A stretch of 64,000 nucleotides of DNA. It comes from Trueperaceae bacterium (GTDB lineage: Bacteria; Deinococcota; Deinococci; Deinococcales; Trueperaceae). The notes under the pieces are model-generated. The model did no database searches, had not been told where the DNA came from, and was given only the letters and a program-made list of their open reading frames with translations. Location of the stretch: contig JACCWH010000237.1 in NCBI GenBank assembly GCA_013697735.1, positions 1-64,000 of the forward strand, in the 5' to 3' direction. Of the stretch, positions 48,855 through 59,595 are shown piece after piece. A program made the position numbers and the translations under genes. Numbering within the stretch: the first letter of the stretch is position 1; every line of letters begins with the position of its first letter.

Positions 48855-49906
48855 CGTGGTTCGCCCGCCGCGCGCACCGCTTGCCACATGCGCTCGAGTT
48901 TGTTGATCAGGTATCGCTCTCGCACCCAGCCGCGGAAGGGTTGCGCCGGTAGTCCCCCCCACGTCTCGCCGGCCGGTATCTCCTTCGAGACGCCGCTCCC
49001 ACCGGCGAGGCGGACGTCGTCGCCGACGGTGACGTGATCGGCGATCATGCAGCCTCCGCCCATCACGACACGAGCGCCGATTCGGCAGGAGCCGGCGAGT
49101 CCCGAGAGCCCGGCGATCACGGCGTCGTCGCCGATGACGACGTTGTGGCCGATCTGGCACAGGTTGTCGACCTTCACGCGGTTCCCGATTCGTGTGTCGT
49201 CGAGCGTGCCGCGGTCGACGGCGGTGTTGGCGCCGAGTTCGACGTCGTCCCCGATCGTGACACCCCCGAGGTGGTGGATCTTCTCCGCACCGTTGGGTCC
49301 GAAGGCGTACCCGAACCCGTCCGCTCCGATGACCACACCGGCGTGGAGCCGCACGCGGTCTCCGATGCGCACGCCGTCGTAGAGCACCACACCATCGTGC
49401 AGGACGCCGTGCGCGCCGATGGACGATCCGGCTCCGACGCTGCAGCGAGCGCCGATCGCCGTTCCTTCGCCGATGGTGGCGTCGGGGCCGACGTAGGCTC
49501 CGGGTCCGATACGGACGTCGGCCCCGAGGCGCGCGCTCGCGTCGACCACGGCGCTCGCCGCGATCCCGGGCGGCGTGGTCGCGGGGCGGGCATCGAGCCG
49601 GGCCGAGGTGCGCGCCAACGCCACACGGGTGTCGCGCACGCCCACGAGCGCGACGCCTTCTCGCAGGGCAGCGGCGCGGAGCGTCTCCTCGTCGACCCGT
49701 ACCTCCTCGACGATCAGGGCGACCAGCCCGGCCTGCGCGAGCGCTCCGATCCGCTCCGGATCGGGCTTTGGCCAGACGGCCACGGCCCCGGGGACCGGGC
49801 GTGCGACGCTCACGAGGACCTCCACGCTGCGCGCGTCGCCGTGGTGGCGTCCGTCCACGAGCGCTGCCAGTTCGGTGCTCGAGACGCTCACTCCCGACCC
49901 GCTCAC
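48851..49906 (-). CDS. lpxD: UDP-3-O-(acyl)glucosamine N-acyltransferase
   Basis: 351 residues. An N-terminal uridine-binding domain (1-105) is followed by a hexapeptide beta-helix ([20 protein letters not shown]). The catalytic histidine is in [13 protein letters not shown] near residue 240, with [17 protein letters not shown] before it; the C-terminal helix contains [20 protein letters not shown]. It adds the second 3-hydroxyacyl chain. The GTG start at 49906 overlaps the stop of the S55 protease gene (GTGA). Confidence 0.93.
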
Positions 49907-51708
49907 GGATCGTCCCCCGTCGACACGTTGTCGTCTCCCTCCGGCGCTACCACGTCGGCATCCTCTCCTGGCGGGGCCACGTCGATCGACAACGTTCTGG
50001 CGCCTTGGATCACGTAGGGCAGCGCGAGCCTGCCGATTTCGTTCCACGGCCCTCCTTCGGCACGGATCTCGACCACTAGGTCGGCGCCCTGTGGTCGCTC
50101 CCGGAGCGCGGTCAGTAACTCACCGTACGACAAGAGCACGTCGTCGGCGTGCACATCGTTCTCATCTCGTGCCTCGCCCCCACCCCGCACCCGGAGCTCG
50201 AGATCTCCGGAGAGGTCGGCGGGAAGGCGGCCGTAGAAGGCCTTCACCTCCGAGGCGCGTCGCCACGGTTGGAGGCGGAGCATCAGGGAGAGCCACCCCC
50301 CGGCGACGGGTACCTCGCCGTCGACGAGGACCTCGACGACCTCGGCATCTCGCCGCCGCTCGTCGATCGTGATCGCCACCTGCACGGCGGTCGGACGCGC
50401 TTCCTGAAAGGCGTTCGTCGCCAGAATGGCGAGTGGGAGGCTCGCGAGTCGCGCCGCTGCCAGCGAGACGTCGACCGCGTGGGCGGTCCGCTCCGTGAGG
50501 CGCAAGGGTGGCCCGCCGGGGAGGTCGATCTCCCAGGCGATGTCGGCCGTGCCGGATCCCGTGCGCCGCCACGTGCGGTCGATCGCCTCGAGCGTCGAGA
50601 TCGCGAGCAGGACCGGCCACACGCGTTCGTCGGCGACGACGTCGAAGCGCAGCGTCTCGTGCCTCGATCCGGTGGTGACGCCGACCGTGACCGCTACCAT
50701 CTCGGGATCCTCACCGAGCGCCGCCGCGATGCCGGCCGGGCCATCCTGCACGACCGTGCCGAGGAGCTCCCCGCCGACGTTCGCGAGCTTGAACGGGACG
50801 ACGCGGCTCGGCACGATCGCCGTCACCGTCGCTGGAACGAGCGGCCATGAGGTCGGACCGACGCCGAGGAACGGGTGGCCGAATGCCAGCAGGGCGTCGG
50901 ACGTCACGTCGGTGACCGTGCCGACGACGGCGATCGTGATGTCGCCGCGGACGAGCGCGACGGCGACCGCCGACCCCGGGACCGGCTGGCGGGCGGCGTC
51001 CGGGCTGCGGCTGGCACCTCCGGCCTGAACTGGACGTAGCGCATGCGTCGCGGTGCTGAGGACGGTCTGGTCGAGGAGCGCGAGCGCGCGTGCGCCGAGA
51101 CCGGCGACCGCGAGCGGCGTGGCGATCGGCACCACCCCGTTCGCTCCGAGGTCGGCGTGCGGCGCGAACGTGCCCGCCGAGGGCCCGTCGCCCCAGTCGA
51201 GCGCTCCTTCGCGCATCGCGTCGATGGGCGTCACGAGCGCGAGGCGGGCGTCGCTCTCGGGGAAGACGTACGCGAGGGCGCCGAGCAAGGCTTCGCCCCG
51301 CGCGTGCGGGAGGTAGACCGGGCTACCGCTCATGCCGGCGGCAACGCCGCCGATGGCGTCGATGAACGGCCCCTCCACGCGCACGAGAACGAGCGGCAGG
51401 CCCGGTCCGAGGTCGTATTGCAGCGCGATCACGGTGACCGGGAAGCGCTCGATGACGTCGCCGGGGGCGGCCGTGAGGGCGTAGCCGACGGTGCCGGGCT
51501 CGAGTTCGTCGAGCGGAAACGCCGGAAACGGCGCAGTTCGCGTGGTTCCCGCCTGTGCCGCCCCCAGATTGCCGAGCGAGAGGCCGAGGGAGACCACGAG
51601 CACGGTGAGCACGCCCGTGACGCTCGACCGCGCCCGCAGTGTGCGCCGAGCGGTATGACGCCCCTCGTGGTGTGCGCGGGCGAGTGGCGGTGAGACCGCC
51701 CGTGGCAT
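49903..51708 (-). CDS. SpoIVB-type serine protease (peptidase S55 domain), exported
   Basis: 601 residues. A basic N-terminus and a signal peptide (residues ~30-52, [21 protein letters not shown]). The S55 domain (about 65-290) has [23 protein letters not shown], the nucleophile segment [10 protein letters not shown] near 123, and FGHPFLGVG, where the active-site His is expected. The C-terminal ~300 residues are beta-rich and unassigned. No PDZ domain is seen. It is translationally coupled to mreB2 upstream and lpxD downstream, so an envelope-quality or regulatory role is plausible. Confidence 0.82.
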
Positions 51709-52742
51709 CAGCGCCGCAAGAAGGTGTCTGAAATCAATGCATCTTGCAGCACGGGGATCATGTCGAGCGCTTGACCGGTGCCGAGTGCGACGCAGTCCGT
51801 GGGATTCTCGGCTACGACCACCGGTATCCCGGTCGTCTGGCGCAGCAATTCGTCGAAATTGCGCAGCATCGCGCCACCGCCCGTCATGATGATGCCGCGA
51901 TCGATCACGTCCGAGACGAGTTCCGGGGGGGCCGCCTCGAGCACGCGACGGACACCGTCGGCGATCTTCTGGATGGGCTCCTTGAGCGCCTCGACCGTGT
52001 CTTCCGTGGCGACGCGGATCGTCTTGGGGAGGCCGTTGATCAGGTCACGGCCGCGCACCTCGATCTCGCGAGAATCCTCCTTGCGGTTGATGATCGCGGC
52101 GCCGACCTTCATCTTGACTTCCTCGGCCGTCCTGTCGCCGATGAGGAGGTTCTCCTTATGGCGGATGTAGCGGATGATCGCCTCGTCGAACTCGTTCCCC
52201 GCGATCCGGAGCGATTCCGACACCACGATGCCGCCGAGGCTGATGATGGCCACGTCGGTGGTGCCGCCACCGATGTCGACGATCATCGACCCGGTCGGTT
52301 CGGCGATGGCGACGCCGGCACCGATGGCCGCGGCGAGCGGCTCCTCGATCAGGAACGCCTTGCGGGCACCCACCTCGCGCGTCGCCTGCAGCACGGCCCG
52401 CCGCTCCACCTCCGTCACGCCGGAGGGGACGCAGACCATCACGTTCGGTTTGAAGAAGCGCCCGGCCCGGCCGACCACCTTGCGGACGAACGCCTGCAGC
52501 ATCTTCTCGGTGAGGTCGTAGTCGGCAATGACGCCGTCGCGCATGGGTCGAACGGCAATGATGTTGCCCGGCGTCCGTCCGAGCATGCGATAGGCCTCCT
52601 CGCCGACCGCCTTGACGTCGCCCGTGTCGCGCACCATTGCGATCACGGAGGGTTCGCGCAGCATGATGCCCTTGCCTTTGACGTAGATGAGGACGGTCGC
52701 CGTCCCGAGGTCCACGCCGATCTCTTGCCACAGTCTGAACAT
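51708..52742 (-). CDS. mreB: MreB-like actin homologue, paralogue 2
   Basis: 344 residues. IGVDLGTATVLIYVKGKGI, VDIGGGTTDVAIISLGG, IEEPLAAAIGAG and MTGGGAMLRNF are the actin-fold nucleotide motifs. It is close to paralogue 1 over its whole length but has an N-terminal FRLWQ that could be a membrane-binding amphipathic end, which paralogue 1 lacks. It opens an operon with the S55 protease and lpx genes (TGATG overlap), not with mreCD. AGGAG lies 5 bases before the ATG. Confidence 0.93.
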   Translation of the reverse strand: MFRLWQEIGVDLGTATVLIYVKGKGIMLREPSVIAMVRDTGDVKAVGEEAYRMLGRTPGNIIAVRPMRDGVIADYDLTEKMLQAFVRKVVGRAGRFFKPNVMVCVPSGVTEVERRAVLQATREVGARKAFLIEEPLAAAIGAGVAIAEPTGSMIVDIGGGTTDVAIISLGGIVVSESLRIAGNEFDEAIIRYIRHKENLLIGDRTAEEVKMKVGAAIINRKEDSREIEVRGRDLINGLPKTIRVATEDTVEALKEPIQKIADGVRRVLEAAPPELVSDVIDRGIIMTGGGAMLRNFDELLRQTTGIPVVVAENPTDCVALGTGQALDMIPVLQDALISDTFLRR

Positions 52743-52919: not shown

Positions 52920-53495
52920 TCAGCCGTATCGGGGTAGGAGCGGCGCACCGGCGCGCGCGGCGCGGGCGGCATGGAACGCGTCGGGTGCGATCCCTTCGAC
53001 CAGACGCGCCCCGGGTGGTACCTCCGCGCGCGGGCGCCGGCGCCCCTCCTCGAGCACGTCGATGTCGTCGCCGATCCGCCGAAAGCGGCCCGCATAGACG
53101 GCGCCTCGGCGGGCATCGATCGCCGACCAACCGACCTCGCCGTCGTCGAGGCCGGCAAGTGCGAGGGCCTCGAGCGTTCCCGCGCCGGCGACTGCGACCC
53201 CGAGCCCGCGGCCGAGCCCGAGTGCCGCCGCGATCCCGATTCGGATCCCGGTGAACGACCCGGGACCGACCCCCACGCCGATCGCCCGAAGCGCCTCGGG
53301 CGCGACGTCGTGGGCACGCACGAACGCGTCGAGCTCGCCCATGAGTGCTCCGGCGAGGTCGCGACCGAGGTCGATGGCGTGGCGGTGCACCACGTCGGTC
53401 GCACCGTCCGCACCAGCTGGCGACCACAGCGCGAGCGCGAGCCACGGCGTGGCAGTGTCGAGGCCGAGGTACCACGGTGAAGGGTCGCTGGTCAT
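52920..53495 (-). CDS. tsaB: tRNA t6A synthesis protein TsaB
   Basis: 191 residues of the ASKHA fold: YLGLDTATPWLALAL at the N-terminus, GVGVGPGSFTGIRIGIAAALGLGRGL near residue 65 (the TsaB signature) and SAIDARRGAVYAGRF. It is the platform of the TsaBDE complex that puts threonylcarbamoyl on A37 of ANN-decoding tRNAs. The start at 53495 overlaps the tsaE stop (ATGA). tsaD and tsaC are not in the window. Confidence 0.92.
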   Translation of the reverse strand: MTSDPSPWYLGLDTATPWLALALWSPAGADGATDVVHRHAIDLGRDLAGALMGELDAFVRAHDVAPEALRAIGVGVGPGSFTGIRIGIAAALGLGRGLGVAVAGAGTLEALALAGLDDGEVGWSAIDARRGAVYAGRFRRIGDDIDVLEEGRRRPRAEVPPGARLVEGIAPDAFHAARAARAGAPLLPRYG

Positions 53496-53923
53496 GCCGG
53501 GCCGCGTCGCCAGGTGGCACCGTGCCGCGCGTCGACCCGATCGAGTTCGAGGTGGAGGGCGTCGGGGTAGAGCGGCTCGAGCGGCGCCCCCCACTCGACC
53601 ACCACGGCGCGGGCTCGATCCAGGTATTCGTCGAGCCCGAGCCGCACGAGGTCGACAGCCGCGTCGAGGCGGTAGGCGTCGACGTGGACGAGGGGTCCGT
53701 GCGGCGTCGGGTACTCGTGCACGAGCGTGTAGGTCGGGCTCGTCACGTCGGCGTCGCTGCCGAGCGCGCGCGCGAGCGCTCGGACGAACGTCGTCTTACC
53801 CGCGCCCAGTGGCCCGCTCAGCAGGAGGAGAGCGCCATGGGGGAGTGTGGCAGCCGTCGCGCGCGCGAAGGCACGCGTGGCATCGAGGTCATCGAGTGGG
53901 CGTCGACGTGCCGGAGGGGTCAC
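53492..53923 (-). CDS. tsaE: tRNA t6A synthesis ATPase TsaE
   Basis: 143 residues. Walker A LSGPLGAGKTTFVRALA near residue 36, switch region SPTYTLVHEYP, VHVDAYRLD, and VVVEWGAPL. It is the small ATPase that resets the TsaBD complex. The GTG start overlaps the stop of the large coiled-coil roadblock gene (GTGA), so expression of t6A genes is tied to that gene. Confidence 0.92.
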   Translation of the reverse strand: MTPPARRRPLDDLDATRAFARATAATLPHGALLLLSGPLGAGKTTFVRALARALGSDADVTSPTYTLVHEYPTPHGPLVHVDAYRLDAAVDLVRLGLDEYLDRARAVVVEWGAPLEPLYPDALHLELDRVDARHGATWRRGPA

Positions 53924-56916
53924 CCGAGCGGGGCCGAGTCGGTCTCCCCGTCGTGCTCCTCGCGAAGCCGTGTGGTGAGGGCCGGCACGGCGTCGAGATC
54001 ACCGACGAGGAGGGCGAGATGGCCGCCACCGCGAGTCGGAACCATCAGCAGGTGATGTCGGGGGAGCGCGAGGTCGATGACGTCGGCCGACCCCGCCTCC
54101 CAGATCGTGCCGAGCTGCCGAAACGCGCTTGCGGTCGCCGACACCGCTGCGGCGACGTCGACCGTCGGCGCGCCGGCGAGTGCTCCGCCGAGCGGGCGAC
54201 CGCCACCGTCGACGGCGAAGACGGCGTCCACGCCTTCGAGTTCCCGATACGCGTCCATGCGGGACGCGAGATCGGGATCGATCGGTCCCTCGGGGGCCCG
54301 TTCGTCCGACACGACGACCTCGTCCGGCACGGTGACCTCGTCCGGTACGGCGCTTTCGTCCGGTGGAACATGGACGACGCCCTCCTCGGTCGGTGCATCG
54401 TCGAATCCGAACCCGCCCGAGAGGTCGTCGAAGAAGCCGAGGACGTCGTCGAGCATGCTGCCCGACACGAGTTGGTCGGCGACCGCCCGCGTGGCCTCGT
54501 AGGCCTCTTCGAGCCCCTGCAGGAGCATTTCTGCCTCGGCGAGGGCGCCGACGAGCTGCGCCTGGAGACCGGGAGAGACGCGGCCGATGGCGTCGCGTTG
54601 CGAGTCGAGGTGGGTGAGGATCCGGCGAACGGCGGCGACGTCGTCGTTGTTGAGTCGCTCCACCGTGGTGAGTGCCGCCAATGCGACGTCGAGCCGATCT
54701 TCGAACGCGGCGAGCCGCTCCCGCATCTGGCGCTCGATCTCCACGACGGCCGTCTCCGCGGCGTCGAGATGCCGCGTCGCCGGTCGTCCCTCGTCGAGTT
54801 CGGCCCGTGCGGTGGCGAGCGAGGCGCGGAGACGCTCGACGCTCGGTACGCCGCTCGTGTCGAGGCGTGACCCGTCGAGCTGCAGGCGCTGGAGTCGCGT
54901 CTGATCGCGCTCGCGGGCGGACGCCCGCTCCTGGTCGATCACGAGCCTGAGCCGGTCGAGGTCGGGGAACGTGTCCGCCGCGAGGCTTCGCGCGGCGGCC
55001 TGGAGTTCGCGGAGCACGACCTCTCCGACGGATTCCCCCGCCTCCTTCCCGAGCGAGTCGAGTCGGTGCGCGGCCTCGGCGACGGCGTCGGCGTGGAGCC
55101 GGTCGACGAGCGATCCGAGTGCGGCGACGTGCGCCTCGTCGAGGTCGTCCTCGTCGGCGAATCGTGCGATCTCCTGGCGGAGGTCCGCGGCGCGCGCCGG
55201 CACGCTGCCGAGCTGCGGGAGGGCCGAGAGCCGCACGTCGCAGCTGCGCAGGCGGGCCCGGACGCGTTCGCGGGCGTCGTCTGCCCGCTCGGCCACCCCC
55301 CGCTCCCATCGGGACTCGCCCCGGCGGGCACGCTCGAGTGCGTCGCTGTCGGCCCGACCCGCCTCGATCGCCTCGGCGAGTGCGTCGCGCGCGTCGCCGA
55401 GCTCGGTGCGGAGGGGAGCGAAGGCGTCGCTCTCGAAGCCAGGGCGCGCGAGCGCGGCGTCGATGCGCTCGAGCACTTCGACCTGAGTGGCGATCTGGGT
55501 CGCCGTCCGACTCCGAACCTCCTCCTCGCGTCGGGTGAGCTCCTCCGAGCGCTCGCGGGCGCTGCGGTGGAGGTCGCGTATCACGTGCACGTCGTCGAAG
55601 GCTGGCAACCCCTCCGCGAGCACGTCGCGGGTGACGCGTACCGCACGCTCGAGCGTGGCGACGCCCACGTCGGGATGCAACCCCGGGATCTCGTCGGCAA
55701 CGGCGTCGAGCTCGTGCTGGAGATGGTTCCGCTGCACCGCCGACGTCTCGGCCAACGTCTCGCGGAGGGACTTCAGGTCGCCCGCGACGCTGGTGCGCCC
55801 ATCGAGCCCACCGCGGATCGATTCGAAGTGCGTCGCGAGGTCGGGGAGATAGCGAAGCAGTTCGCCGTGTTCAGCCTGCAAGGAGGCGAGCTCCTTCGTT
55901 TCCGACTCGAGATCGAGACGGAGCAGCCGTTCGGTGACCTCCGCGCTGAGGTGCTCGGGGACCACCTCTTCGGCGCCGAGCGGCAGCGAGGCCGCGGCGG
56001 CGGCGAAGTCTGCTGCGGCGCCGAATTGCGCGGCGGCGCCGAAGTCCGCGGCGGCGCCGAAGTCCGCGGCGCCAGCCGGAGGGGCGTCGTCGCGGCGCCT
56101 CCGCCCTTCGAGGGAGGTGTCTGGCGGGTCCTCGGGCCGATAGACGCTCGACTCCATCAGCTTGCGAAGGTCGCGTGCGAGCGTGCGACCGCGTTCACAT
56201 TCCGCATCGGCCAGCGTTCGCTCGGCCTGGGCCTGACGGACCTGGCCGACGAGTGCTTCGAGTCGGCGGACGCGCGGGCCGCCGAGGTTGGCGACGGCTT
56301 CGAATGCCTCCTCGAGCTCACCGAGGTCGCGCGCCTGCAGGACCAGTTGGTCCTCGAGCTTCTGCTCCACGATCCGCAGCTGCGCCTCCGCCTCGTCGAA
56401 GGCGGCCTCGAGGTCGTCGCGTGTTGCAACCTCGCTCTCGAGCACCTGCACTTGCGCCCGGAGCTTGCGAACCTCGGGCCAACCGAAGTACAGGTTGAAC
56501 GGCCGCATGGCGGCGCGCAAGGTGGCGAGCCGCGCCACCGACGATGCGGACGCCGCGCCCGCAGCGGGTGCGGCGGCGTGCGACGCGTCGGTCACGCCGG
56601 TCACGACATCGACGGTCGCGACTGCGGACTCCTCGGCGCGTACGACGGGGACCTTCGTGGTCGGCTCGACCGCTGCTACCTGAAGGCGCTCGAGCAGTCC
56701 CGCTACCATCGTGCGCGCCTGCTCGGCGGGATTGGTCACCTGTAGGTACTTGAAGACCGCACCTTTGAGGATGCGTTCCACGTCGCCGAAGGCGACGCTG
56801 GCCGGAGTCTGATCGACCTCACCAAGCCCCTCCTTGAGCGCACGCGACACCACCCGAGGGGGGAGCACCGCTTCGAGCTCCTCGACGGTCGCTTGGTACA
56901 GGGCATTGGGACGCAT
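53920..56916 (-). CDS. Large coiled-coil protein with a C-terminal roadblock/LC7-like domain
   Basis: 998 residues. N-terminal domain (1-80) MRPNALYQATVEELEAVLPP is homologous to that of the 240-residue protein at 58873-59595. Next an Ala-rich region, a coiled coil (LRAQVQVLESEVATRDDLEAAFDE), four ADFGAA hexapeptides near residue 300, and long helical Glu/Arg-rich segments (350-830). An acidic linker with VPDEV repeats leads to a roadblock/LC7-like domain (about 888-985): [21 protein letters not shown], then HHLLMVPTRGGGHLALLVGDL. Roadblock proteins bind or regulate small GTPases (MglB), but no GTPase gene is adjacent. No signal peptide or membrane helix, so cytosolic. The start is set by a TAGCGT box 8 bases upstream. 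Confidence 0.75.
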   Translation of the reverse strand: MRPNALYQATVEELEAVLPPRVVSRALKEGLGEVDQTPASVAFGDVERILKGAVFKYLQVTNPAEQARTMVAGLLERLQVAAVEPTTKVPVVRAEESAVATVDVVTGVTDASHAAAPAAGAASASSVARLATLRAAMRPFNLYFGWPEVRKLRAQVQVLESEVATRDDLEAAFDEAEAQLRIVEQKLEDQLVLQARDLGELEEAFEAVANLGGPRVRRLEALVGQVRQAQAERTLADAECERGRTLARDLRKLMESSVYRPEDPPDTSLEGRRRRDDAPPAGAADFGAAADFGAAAQFGAAADFAAAAASLPLGAEEVVPEHLSAEVTERLLRLDLESETKELASLQAEHGELLRYLPDLATHFESIRGGLDGRTSVAGDLKSLRETLAETSAVQRNHLQHELDAVADEIPGLHPDVGVATLERAVRVTRDVLAEGLPAFDDVHVIRDLHRSARERSEELTRREEEVRSRTATQIATQVEVLERIDAALARPGFESDAFAPLRTELGDARDALAEAIEAGRADSDALERARRGESRWERGVAERADDARERVRARLRSCDVRLSALPQLGSVPARAADLRQEIARFADEDDLDEAHVAALGSLVDRLHADAVAEAAHRLDSLGKEAGESVGEVVLRELQAAARSLAADTFPDLDRLRLVIDQERASARERDQTRLQRLQLDGSRLDTSGVPSVERLRASLATARAELDEGRPATRHLDAAETAVVEIERQMRERLAAFEDRLDVALAALTTVERLNNDDVAAVRRILTHLDSQRDAIGRVSPGLQAQLVGALAEAEMLLQGLEEAYEATRAVADQLVSGSMLDDVLGFFDDLSGGFGFDDAPTEEGVVHVPPDESAVPDEVTVPDEVVVSDERAPEGPIDPDLASRMDAYRELEGVDAVFAVDGGGRPLGGALAGAPTVDVAAAVSATASAFRQLGTIWEAGSADVIDLALPRHHLLMVPTRGGGHLALLVGDLDAVPALTTRLREEHDGETDSAPLG
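56007..56075 (-). repeat. 18-bp tandem repeats encoding ADFGAA hexapeptides
   Basis: GCGGCGCCGAAGTCC-type units recur about four times in frame within the coiled-coil roadblock gene. They make a flexible or self-associating Ala/Phe-rich segment. Confidence 0.65.
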
Positions 56917-56924
56917 GATGGTCG

Positions 56925-56930
56925 ACGCTA
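56925..56930 (-). promoter_or_regulatory. -10 box TAGCGT of the coiled-coil roadblock-tsaE-tsaB operon
   Basis: The box ends 8 bases before the ATG at 56916. Its -35 position lies in the hairpin at 56943-56970. Confidence 0.55.
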
Positions 56931-56942
56931 CCGAGGCGCGGG

Positions 56943-56970
56943 CCGTTCGGTGCCGCTCAGCACCGAACGG
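56943..56970 (-). terminator. Terminator hairpin between the membrane protein and the coiled-coil gene
   Basis: Perfect 11-bp stem (CCGTTCGGTGC and its complement) with a 6-base loop, 10 bases after the membrane-protein stop codon. Confidence 0.7.
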
Positions 56971-56980
56971 GGGTGCGTCC

Positions 56981-58876
56981 TCAGACGTCGTCGTCCCAGT
57001 CGATGCTCTCGGCGGTGGCGCGGGTCGAGCGCGTGGTGCGCGTGGAGCGCGACGACGCCGGCGCTGCGGGCTTGCGACCGACGAGCCCGAACTGCGCACA
57101 GATGCCGTAGAGGCCGGTGATCGCGAACAGTACGGCGAGGAGCATCATCGCCGCCCACACGGTCTGGGCGACCGTCGAAGCGAAGACCGAGAACGCCGCG
57201 AGCGACGCCAATACGTCGAGTCCGGCGTAGTGCACGAGGAGTGCACCGAGCGCGACCACCCCTTCGTAGAGTGCGGGCACGAGGAGCAGGAAGAGCGCGA
57301 CGCCGATCAGTTGCCAATTCCGGTTGCCGCCGCCGAAGGCGAGGTTGAGCAGGAAGAGCGGTATGAGCGCCAGGATGCCGATCACGAGCAGGACGACCGT
57401 GCGCACGAGGCCGGCCCAGATCGTCGTCGTCTGACGCGCGCCGGCCTGAATGGCGGAGGGGGCCGCACCCGAGAGGGCGCCGCGGACGGCCTCCACCTGG
57501 CCGCTCACCACGACGGCGTCTTGCACCCTGAGGCCGACGGCCCCGTTGAGGTGTGCGAGCAGCTCGAGCGTGTCGAGGTCGAGCGCCGCGTCCACTGGGC
57601 GCACGATGGGCGAGAGCTGGGTTTCGTAGAGGGCTGAGCCCGTGCGTAGCGCCGACACCACTGCGGCGTCGTCGCCGCGATGTGCTCCCGCCGCGATCGC
57701 GCTCGCAGCGGCCGCGAAGGCGTCGAGCGCGCCGGCGAGGCGCTCGAAGCCGGCGTCGAGGAGCGCTTCGGCGCGAGCCGGCCGGAGGTCGCTCGGGACG
57801 CCGGCCGCGGCGAGGTCGACCTCGAGCCGGTCGAGCCGCTCGCGTCGGGCGTCCGCCTCGAACTGCGCCAAGAGCGCTTCGAGGTCGACGAGTGTCAGCT
57901 CGGTCGCCTCCTCGCCGTCGACCAGGAGTTCCGCTGCGCCCTCGTCGGTCGCAGCGGCAGCCGGATCGGGCTGCTCCGAGACGCTGGGCGCCTGGGCGTC
58001 CGCTGGCGCCTGGGCGTCGGCCGTCGCCTGGGCGTCGGCCAGCGGAGGCAACTCGGCCGGCTCACCGGCAGGCGCGCCGGCGGCGGCGGTCGGCACCGCA
58101 CCGTCTCGGGCGCGTGCGGCGGATGCGAGGGCGACGACGTCGCCCTCGATGATCGCGAGCGCGTCGTCGAGGGCGGCGTCGTCGCCCTCGACGAGCGCGT
58201 TCGCGGCGTCGACGAAGGCGGCATTCATGGTCGCGGCCGCACGCGGCGAATCCTGCACGAGCAGGAATGCGCCGTAGGCGCGTGCGAGCGCTCGATAGGC
58301 GCCTCCACCGGTCCCGAGCTCGCGAGCAGTCGCGACTCGCGCGGCGATGACGTCCGCGACTCCGGCCTCGAGCTCGAAGCGCAGCGCGGCTGCGACGCCA
58401 TCGGTATCGGCGAGCGCGACCCGCTCCGCCTCCGCGACGCCGAGCCCTTCGGCGAGGCGAACGAGCCGTGTGCGCGCGAGCGGCAGGTCACCGTCGGCGG
58501 CCGAACGTAGGGCAGCGTCGTAGACGAGGCGCTGGAAGCCCCCTTCGAGCACGGCGGCCTGCACGGCGAGGTCGTCCTGGCTGGCGTTCGTGATCGCCGT
58601 GCGGGCACGCTCGAAGACGCGTTCGAGGGCGGTCGCCAGCGGCCCGGAGGCGGTGTCTCGTGAGAGGGTCAACAGCGCAGTGAAGGCGAGGTCGATCTCC
58701 TCGCGAGCGAGGATTGCGTCCGTTGGCAGGGCCTCGACCGCTCGCTCGAGGTTGCCGATCGCCAGGTCGTAGCGATCGAGGTACGCGTCTTGGTCCTGTG
58801 CGGTCGCAAGCGTGGCGACGAGCGCCAGTGCGAGCACGACGGCCCGGCTGCCGAGCGGAAGCATGAAGGTGTTCAT
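56981..58876 (-). CDS. Exported/membrane protein of the roadblock locus
   Basis: 631 residues. A signal peptide (SRAVVLALALVATLATAQ, residues ~10-27) is followed by ~450 residues of Ala-rich helical extracytoplasmic sequence, interrupted near residue 300 by ADAQAP-type hexapeptide repeats and a low-complexity linker. Three hydrophobic helices follow at about 492-512, 522-550 and 562-592, and a basic Ser/Thr/Arg C-terminal tail ending IDWDDDV. I recognise no family. GGAGGAGG precedes the ATG, which overlaps the stop of the roadblock gene upstream (ATGA). The topology suggests a periplasmic sensor or scaffold with a short cytosolic tail that could contact the roadblock proteins. Confidence 0.75.
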   Translation of the reverse strand: MNTFMLPLGSRAVVLALALVATLATAQDQDAYLDRYDLAIGNLERAVEALPTDAILAREEIDLAFTALLTLSRDTASGPLATALERVFERARTAITNASQDDLAVQAAVLEGGFQRLVYDAALRSAADGDLPLARTRLVRLAEGLGVAEAERVALADTDGVAAALRFELEAGVADVIAARVATARELGTGGGAYRALARAYGAFLLVQDSPRAAATMNAAFVDAANALVEGDDAALDDALAIIEGDVVALASAARARDGAVPTAAAGAPAGEPAELPPLADAQATADAQAPADAQAPSVSEQPDPAAAATDEGAAELLVDGEEATELTLVDLEALLAQFEADARRERLDRLEVDLAAAGVPSDLRPARAEALLDAGFERLAGALDAFAAAASAIAAGAHRGDDAAVVSALRTGSALYETQLSPIVRPVDAALDLDTLELLAHLNGAVGLRVQDAVVVSGQVEAVRGALSGAAPSAIQAGARQTTTIWAGLVRTVVLLVIGILALIPLFLLNLAFGGGNRNWQLIGVALFLLLVPALYEGVVALGALLVHYAGLDVLASLAAFSVFASTVAQTVWAAMMLLAVLFAITGLYGICAQFGLVGRKPAAPASSRSTRTTRSTRATAESIDWDDDV

Positions 58877-59595
58877 CGTTCCTCCTCCAGCGCTGCGAGC
58901 GCTGCGTAGACCGCACCGATGTTCAGGTTGGTCGCGCCGGTGACGGCGAGCCATTGCGGCGGGACGGGCACGGTGACGAGCACACCGTGCGTGGTGGTGA
59001 CACAGACGGTACGGAGTGCGCCGTGGCGAGCGAGCAGCGCGCCACCCGCAGCGATCACACGCCCGAGGGCTTCGGAATCGTGCACGTCGCCGCGGATCCG
59101 AACGGTGCGGCCGGCCTCGTCGAACACGGCGATGCCCTCCACGGCGTCGAGCACGGCCAGCGCCAGGAGCACACGGTCCGGATCGGCCGGTAGGGTGCGC
59201 GCGAGAGCGCTCTCGGGATCCTGCTCGACCGCTGCGACCTCGGGCGTGGGACGCGTGCGCGGTTCGGGAACGGGAGCGGAAGGGTGTTCGTCCGGCGACG
59301 CGACGGCCACCACGGCCTCCGCGGGCAGCTGCTGCGCTCGCTCGGGCGCCTCGATCGCGGCCACCGTGCGGGCCAGGAGTTTGATCTCGCGCCGCAGTGC
59401 GTCGCGCGGCAACACACCGACGAGGCCGTGATAGACCGGTCCGAGGAGGAGCTGGGCCATCTCGGAGCCGCTCACGGCGTCGGCCGTCCGCTCCTTCGAC
59501 TGCAGGGCATCGTCGAGGATGCGGCGCGCGGCACGCCCCGGCAGGAGGCCGGTGAGCCCTTCACGGGTGCGTTCGTAGACGGCATTCGGCGTCAT
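58873..59595 (-). CDS. Roadblock-like protein sharing its N-terminal domain with the coiled-coil partner
   Basis: 240 residues. Residues 1-80 (MTPNAVYERTREGLTGLLPG) align with residues 1-80 of the 998-residue protein: PNA, Y, LLP/VLP, R, L, G and P positions coincide. A Pro/Glu-rich linker (~100-135) leads to a roadblock-like fold (about 142-236): LDAVEGIAVFDEAGRTVRI, THGVLVTVPVPPQWLAVTG, NIGAVYAAL. So both proteins have the same domain order and differ by a ~700-residue helical insert. No signal peptide. First gene of a two-gene unit with the membrane protein. Confidence 0.75.
   Translation of the reverse strand: MTPNAVYERTREGLTGLLPGRAARRILDDALQSKERTADAVSGSEMAQLLLGPVYHGLVGVLPRDALRREIKLLARTVAAIEAPERAQQLPAEAVVAVASPDEHPSAPVPEPRTRPTPEVAAVEQDPESALARTLPADPDRVLLALAVLDAVEGIAVFDEAGRTVRIRGDVHDSEALGRVIAAGGALLARHGALRTVCVTTTHGVLVTVPVPPQWLAVTGATNLNIGAVYAALAALEEER

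Follow-up and report, generated by a model that had tools for sequence, protein, structure and literature searches.

Three consecutive genes, A, B and C, encode two proteins with predicted roadblock domains and, between them, a predicted membrane protein. The set occurs in almost all of the Thermus, Meiothermus and Truepera-type genomes that were searched. It has been lost together with the small GTPase MglA, a switch governing where pili act, which makes it a candidate for the missing partner of that switch. We consider it an even call whether the three proteins act as a roadblock scaffold, anchored in the envelope, that serves the small-GTPase switch MglA/MglB. The set is undescribed and unnamed in Pfam, NCBIfam and the open-licence literature that we searched, as the preliminary description of this DNA had supposed; a description of the gene set elsewhere is possible.

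The A-B-C genes and their proteins

The three genes lie in the window, the whole stretch of 64,000 nucleotides that was analysed, and are read from the minus strand in the order hrcA, A, B, C, tsaE, tsaB, mreB2. Genes A and B overlap by ATGA with a GGAGG site ahead, and C and tsaE overlap by GTGA; these overlaps and the GGAGG site make the genes look co-transcribed and partly co-translated. The features discussed below, in window positions, are:

58873..59595, minus strand: protein A, 240 aa, consisting of N-domain, linker and roadblock (AF2 mean pLDDT 84.6)
59335..59583, minus strand: A, four-helix N-domain, residues 5-87, common to C (AF2 helices, hhalign)
58882..59181, minus strand: A, roadblock/LC7 domain, residues 139-238 (profiles, AF2, Foldseek, hhalign)
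56981..58876, minus strand: protein B, 631 aa, predicted signal peptide, extracytoplasmic region, three TM helices and cytosolic tail (orthologs in 108 of 111 genomes)
57308..57343, minus strand: B, residues 512-523, conserved loop LAFGGGNRNWQL that joins TM1 to TM2 on the predicted cytosolic side
56984..56998, minus strand: B, C-terminal WDDDV, residues 627-631, the local version of the [VI][DE]WD[DE][DE] tail motif
53920..56916, minus strand: protein C, 998 aa with an ATG start, consisting of N-domain, helical core, helical rod and roadblock (AF2 mean pLDDT 86.0)
56668..56904, minus strand: C, four-helix N-domain, residues 5-83, common to A (hhalign, AF2)
56146..56568, minus strand: C, residues 117-257, helical core and best conserved part, with invariant W146, E148 and R153 (orthologs, AF2)
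54418..55944, minus strand: C, residues 325-833, rod in which long helices alternate with short ones (AF2)
53938..54276, minus strand: C, roadblock/LC7 domain, residues 881-993 (profiles, hhalign, AF2, Foldseek)
53492..53923, minus strand: tsaE, overlapping the C stop; context, not counted in the system (kept where A and C are lost)
51708..52742, minus strand: mreB2; context, not counted in the system (kept where A and C are lost)

This is part of a Trueperaceae gene order, guaA-EVE-hrcA-(A-B-C)-tsaE-tsaB-mreB. A SpoIVB-peptidase-S55-like protein, recognised by a weak profile match (E 0.01-0.02) at 49903-51708 of the window, is conserved beside mreB2 across the family, and a second mreB lies at the opposite end of the window, at 834-1877, where the MreB survey located it at 870-1844.

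Proteins A and C were expected to share an N-terminal domain, and their N-domains do align profile to profile (hhalign 99.4%, E 5.4e-22). In hhalign A is joined to C in both the N-domain and the roadblock, and mismatched domain pairs score <1%. The AF2 model of A has four helices and a short fifth (residues 5-87), followed by a low-confidence linker. The same N-domain (E 5e-23) also occurs in a 791-aa protein of genome G001 (L211:1650-4022, minus strand) in which no roadblock was recognised and whose C-terminal part resembles, by eye, an outer-membrane efflux-type coiled coil.

The C-terminal domains of both proteins, residues 139-238 of A and 881-993 of C, are modelled with the fold order a-b-b-a-b-b-b-a and with pLDDT mostly >90. 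The best 50 PDB matches listed by Foldseek are, for the A model and for the C model alike, all roadblock proteins or complexes with one; those listed include Ragulator p14/MP1, archaeal roadblocks, dynein roadblocks, and MglB alone or with MglA. Using sequence profiles without structure, the top match of A is a roadblock (7f8m, E 3e-5), as are the top matches of C (7f8m, E 0.002; 3leq, E 0.011), and comparison with canonical members of the roadblock family, profile against profile, gives E 6e-9 for A and 7e-7 for C. A single MglB sequence gave a negative comparison with the A and C roadblocks, whereas profile against profile was positive. Neither A nor C of the window matches PF03259 (Robl_LC7) above the Pfam gathering score; at E <= 0.1 this profile matches 6 of 25 A orthologs (best E 4.6e-4) and 2 of 37 C orthologs (best 0.0046). 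By model and profile the C-termini of A and C are true roadblock/LC7 folds. Of the two results that would have refuted the preliminary description, C-terminal domains of another fold or N-domains that fail to align, neither was obtained. The preliminary description had recognised them from the raw sequence, correctly and not trivially, since no Pfam or NCBIfam match of the window's A, B or C reaches any cut-off. The window's genome also has two adjoining short roadblock-like genes (L002:1037-1420 and L002:1417-2061), which lie apart from mglB-mglA.

Protein C had further been credited with a long helical stretch that might polymerise. Helical it is in the AF2 model, as a rod in which long and short helices take turns (325-833), not as one continuous coil; there is no evidence of polymerisation. 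Weak matches of C to MutS_III, FliD and similar proteins were dismissed as coiled-coil noise.

Prediction likewise bears out the account of B as a signal-peptide protein with three membrane helices, encoded between A and C. A signal peptide and a large predicted extracytoplasmic part are accompanied by three hydrophobic stretches (about 494-512, 523-541 and 575-593), from which, together with a basic C-terminal segment, a cytosolic tail is predicted. Pfam, NCBIfam and profile searches found no similarity of B to known families. The motif [VI][DE]WD[DE][DE] is at or beside the B C-terminus in 56 of 56 named loci, although B orthologs are often just 23-30% identical; the outer motif positions show a small number of variants, such as Q, or F replacing V/I.

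Distribution and joint loss with MglA

We searched 111 genomes, all placed in the same order as the window's genome (Trueperaceae, Thermaceae and relatives, with Deinococcus absent from the set). B turned up in 108 of them, C in 101 and A in 102, a handful of the A matches being the N-domain of C only. The set, whose shared N-domain the preliminary description had advised searching for in prokaryotic genomes, is not local. A genome-wide scan with B, using a single strict pattern, found matches only in Trueperaceae, Thermaceae and relatives and none in Deinococcus, and a tblastn search of plasmids with C found no match. Several families share the order A-B-C-tsaE. Thermus and Meiothermus retain all three genes, with A and B still adjacent and C relocated.

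There is no MglA within the window and no kinase or GTPase beside A-B-C, nor does mglA neighbour A-B-C at any locus examined. The preliminary description had remarked on the missing Ras-like GTPase and had suggested a distant one, and the window's genome does encode a single MglA, whose gene neighbours mglB on a different contig. As the PF00025 (Arf) profile is a poor MglA detector that catches translation-type GTPases of ~575 residues, the genome's own MglA replaced it as the query. The presence of MglA and of C is identical in 26 of 26 good-quality Trueperaceae genomes, with 21 having both and 5 having neither (Fisher 1.5e-5, kinship ignored). Genomes G101, G104-G107 and G110, of which G105 and G110 are small, all lack MglA, A, C and any Robl_LC7 match. 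In a tree of neighbouring genes the joint losses fall in two separate clades, G101 with G110 (UFBoot 100) and genus g15, in which the fifth genome, G103, is a sister that keeps everything; there were at least two independent joint losses, two or three given a support of 48 for the placement of G105. At the loss loci either all three genes or A and C have disappeared from between hrcA and tsaE-tsaB-mreB, which remain.

Protein B persists in three of these genomes (G104, G106 and G107) without A, C, MglA or MglB and must therefore have some role of its own. In these three proteins the tail tryptophan and aspartate are 0% kept and the loop 29%, compared with 70% for the conserved extracytoplasmic columns, and loss of the tail is restricted to them. 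From these alignments we infer that the tail and loop may be a docking site for C or for a partner of C, as this is the pattern of loss that such a site would be expected to have. In genus g16 (G109 and G108, loci L212 and L213) MglA, B and a shortened C are kept and A is lost, with no mglB beside mglA, so the parts are not inseparable. The B tail in these two genomes reads L[DN]WDEDF and the membrane part has diverged. The profile misses a roadblock in g16 C, yet the sequence reads as an apparent diverged roadblock, and the idea that the domain had been lost there was dropped.

The same three genomes that keep B without A and C also keep PilB and two PilT types and lack a third PilT type, which means that possession of pili cannot by itself account for the link. 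The lost package is MglA, MglB, A, C and one PilT paralogue, not pili as such. The third PilT paralogue (G000:C141:15400-16425, L209) and its relatives are on the mglA contig, ~22-30 kb away in several genomes.

A scaffold for MglA and its alternatives

Structures of Thermus MglA and MglB were studied long ago (Miertzschke 2011, as cited in PMC4316618). Thermus mglA/mglB mutants misplace their pili, and the literature calls it unclear how pilus polarity, or the polar bias, is brought about there (PMC12024867, PMC12393216). A membrane-linked cytosolic scaffold, proposed in the preliminary description, finds support in the predictions for A, B and C, and its working could be as follows. B in the inner membrane would show its GGGNxxW loop and WD-acidic tail to the cytosol. 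C would dock on B by physical contact, A would join through the common N-domain, and the helical rod would hold the docking end of C apart from its roadblock domain. The roadblocks of C and A, paired together or with MglB, may then hold or tune MglA in a Ragulator- or MglB-like manner, and the output would most likely be the site where type IV pili act. Each of these detailed steps is less likely than the scaffold statement itself. In favour of that statement are the gene order, the roadblock folds and the N-domain common to A and C, the disappearance of A and C along with MglA/MglB, and the loss of the B tail in the same genomes. Against it stand the small number of independent losses, two of the genomes concerned being small, the position of mglA away from A-B-C, the separability of the parts in g16, and the survival of B in three genomes without A and C. 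Tentatively, the set could be a Ragulator counterpart in working principle, in which three-TM B recruits, by its invariant WD-acidic tail, a roadblock pair sharing a docking domain, so placing MglA on the envelope and setting pilus polarity in Thermus and relatives; we hold this fuller version to be doubtful.

Roadblock domains can also act purely as dimerisation modules. A, B and C might thus be a structural envelope scaffold, of the pilus machine or of another complex, with roadblocks that only dimerise and a loss that merely mirrors the loss of surface motility along with MglA. The mostly rod-like AF2 model of C would suit such a role, as would G101 and G110, which have no PilT-family match, and G105, which has none above the cut-off. 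However, PilB and two PilT types were retained in G104, G106 and G107 despite the joint loss of MglA, MglB, A and C, and we consider a purely structural role unlikely.

The gene mreB2 lies a few genes downstream of A-B-C in the window and in most Trueperaceae, and the preliminary description had offered MreB2 as a partner. A-B-C would on that account serve the MreB cytoskeleton or cell wall synthesis, with C bridging MreB2 filaments to the membrane via B. This link did not survive as a main reading, because mreB2, tsaE and tsaB stay at the same locus in genomes from which A and C have been deleted; mreB is moreover present in 39 of 39 Trueperaceae genomes and was not recognised beside A-B-C in other families. 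The proximity comes only from the Trueperaceae gene order, and we regard the MreB role as improbable. It is very unlikely that A-B-C regulates another small GTPase, unrelated to polarity, as an alternative GAP/GEF set: most genomes do have several Robl_LC7 proteins and Meiothermus has other Arf-like matches, but a single MglA is encoded in the window's genome, C co-varies with MglA, and that genome's sole Arf-profile match sits in an open frame of ~700 residues typical of a translation GTPase.

As an envelope-anchored scaffold for MglA/MglB, the set would offer widely conserved candidates for the missing polarity anchor and adaptor in Thermus and relatives. The short B peptide motif is the first thing to examine, in an easily transformed organism. 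If the scaffold reading is true, bacterial roadblock domains would be used as membrane-tethered GTPase platforms.

Comparison with known roadblock systems

MglB has the roadblock fold of A and C, is found in the same genomes, and its structures are among their PDB matches. It is the ~160-aa roadblock GAP of MglA in Thermus and Myxococcus and is encoded beside mglA, whereas the A and C genes are not; A and C have an extra N-domain and C a rod of ~500 residues, neither of which is present in MglB. RomY and MglC are second roadblock proteins that work with MglA/MglB, as A and C would be; neither is known to have such an N-domain or a membrane partner resembling B. Both belong to the polarity module of Myxococcus as accessory roadblock proteins (PMC9481161, PMC7949163).

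The actinobacterial conservons (CvnA-D) likewise combine a membrane protein, a roadblock and a small GTPase, and CvnB5 (3leq) was matched by profile. Their operon encodes a histidine-kinase-like membrane protein, a roadblock, a DUF protein and a small GTPase, and the kinase and GTPase are those absent beside A-B-C. Ragulator/LAMTOR is a membrane-tethered roadblock scaffold that recruits small GTPases, as is proposed here, and its p14/MP1 are the best structural matches of A among those listed, the likeness of A and C to it being at fold level. Ragulator is eukaryotic and serves Rag GTPases. It is held by a lipidated subunit that wraps two roadblock heterodimers, whereas the putative anchor here, B, has three predicted TM helices and a C-terminal peptide.
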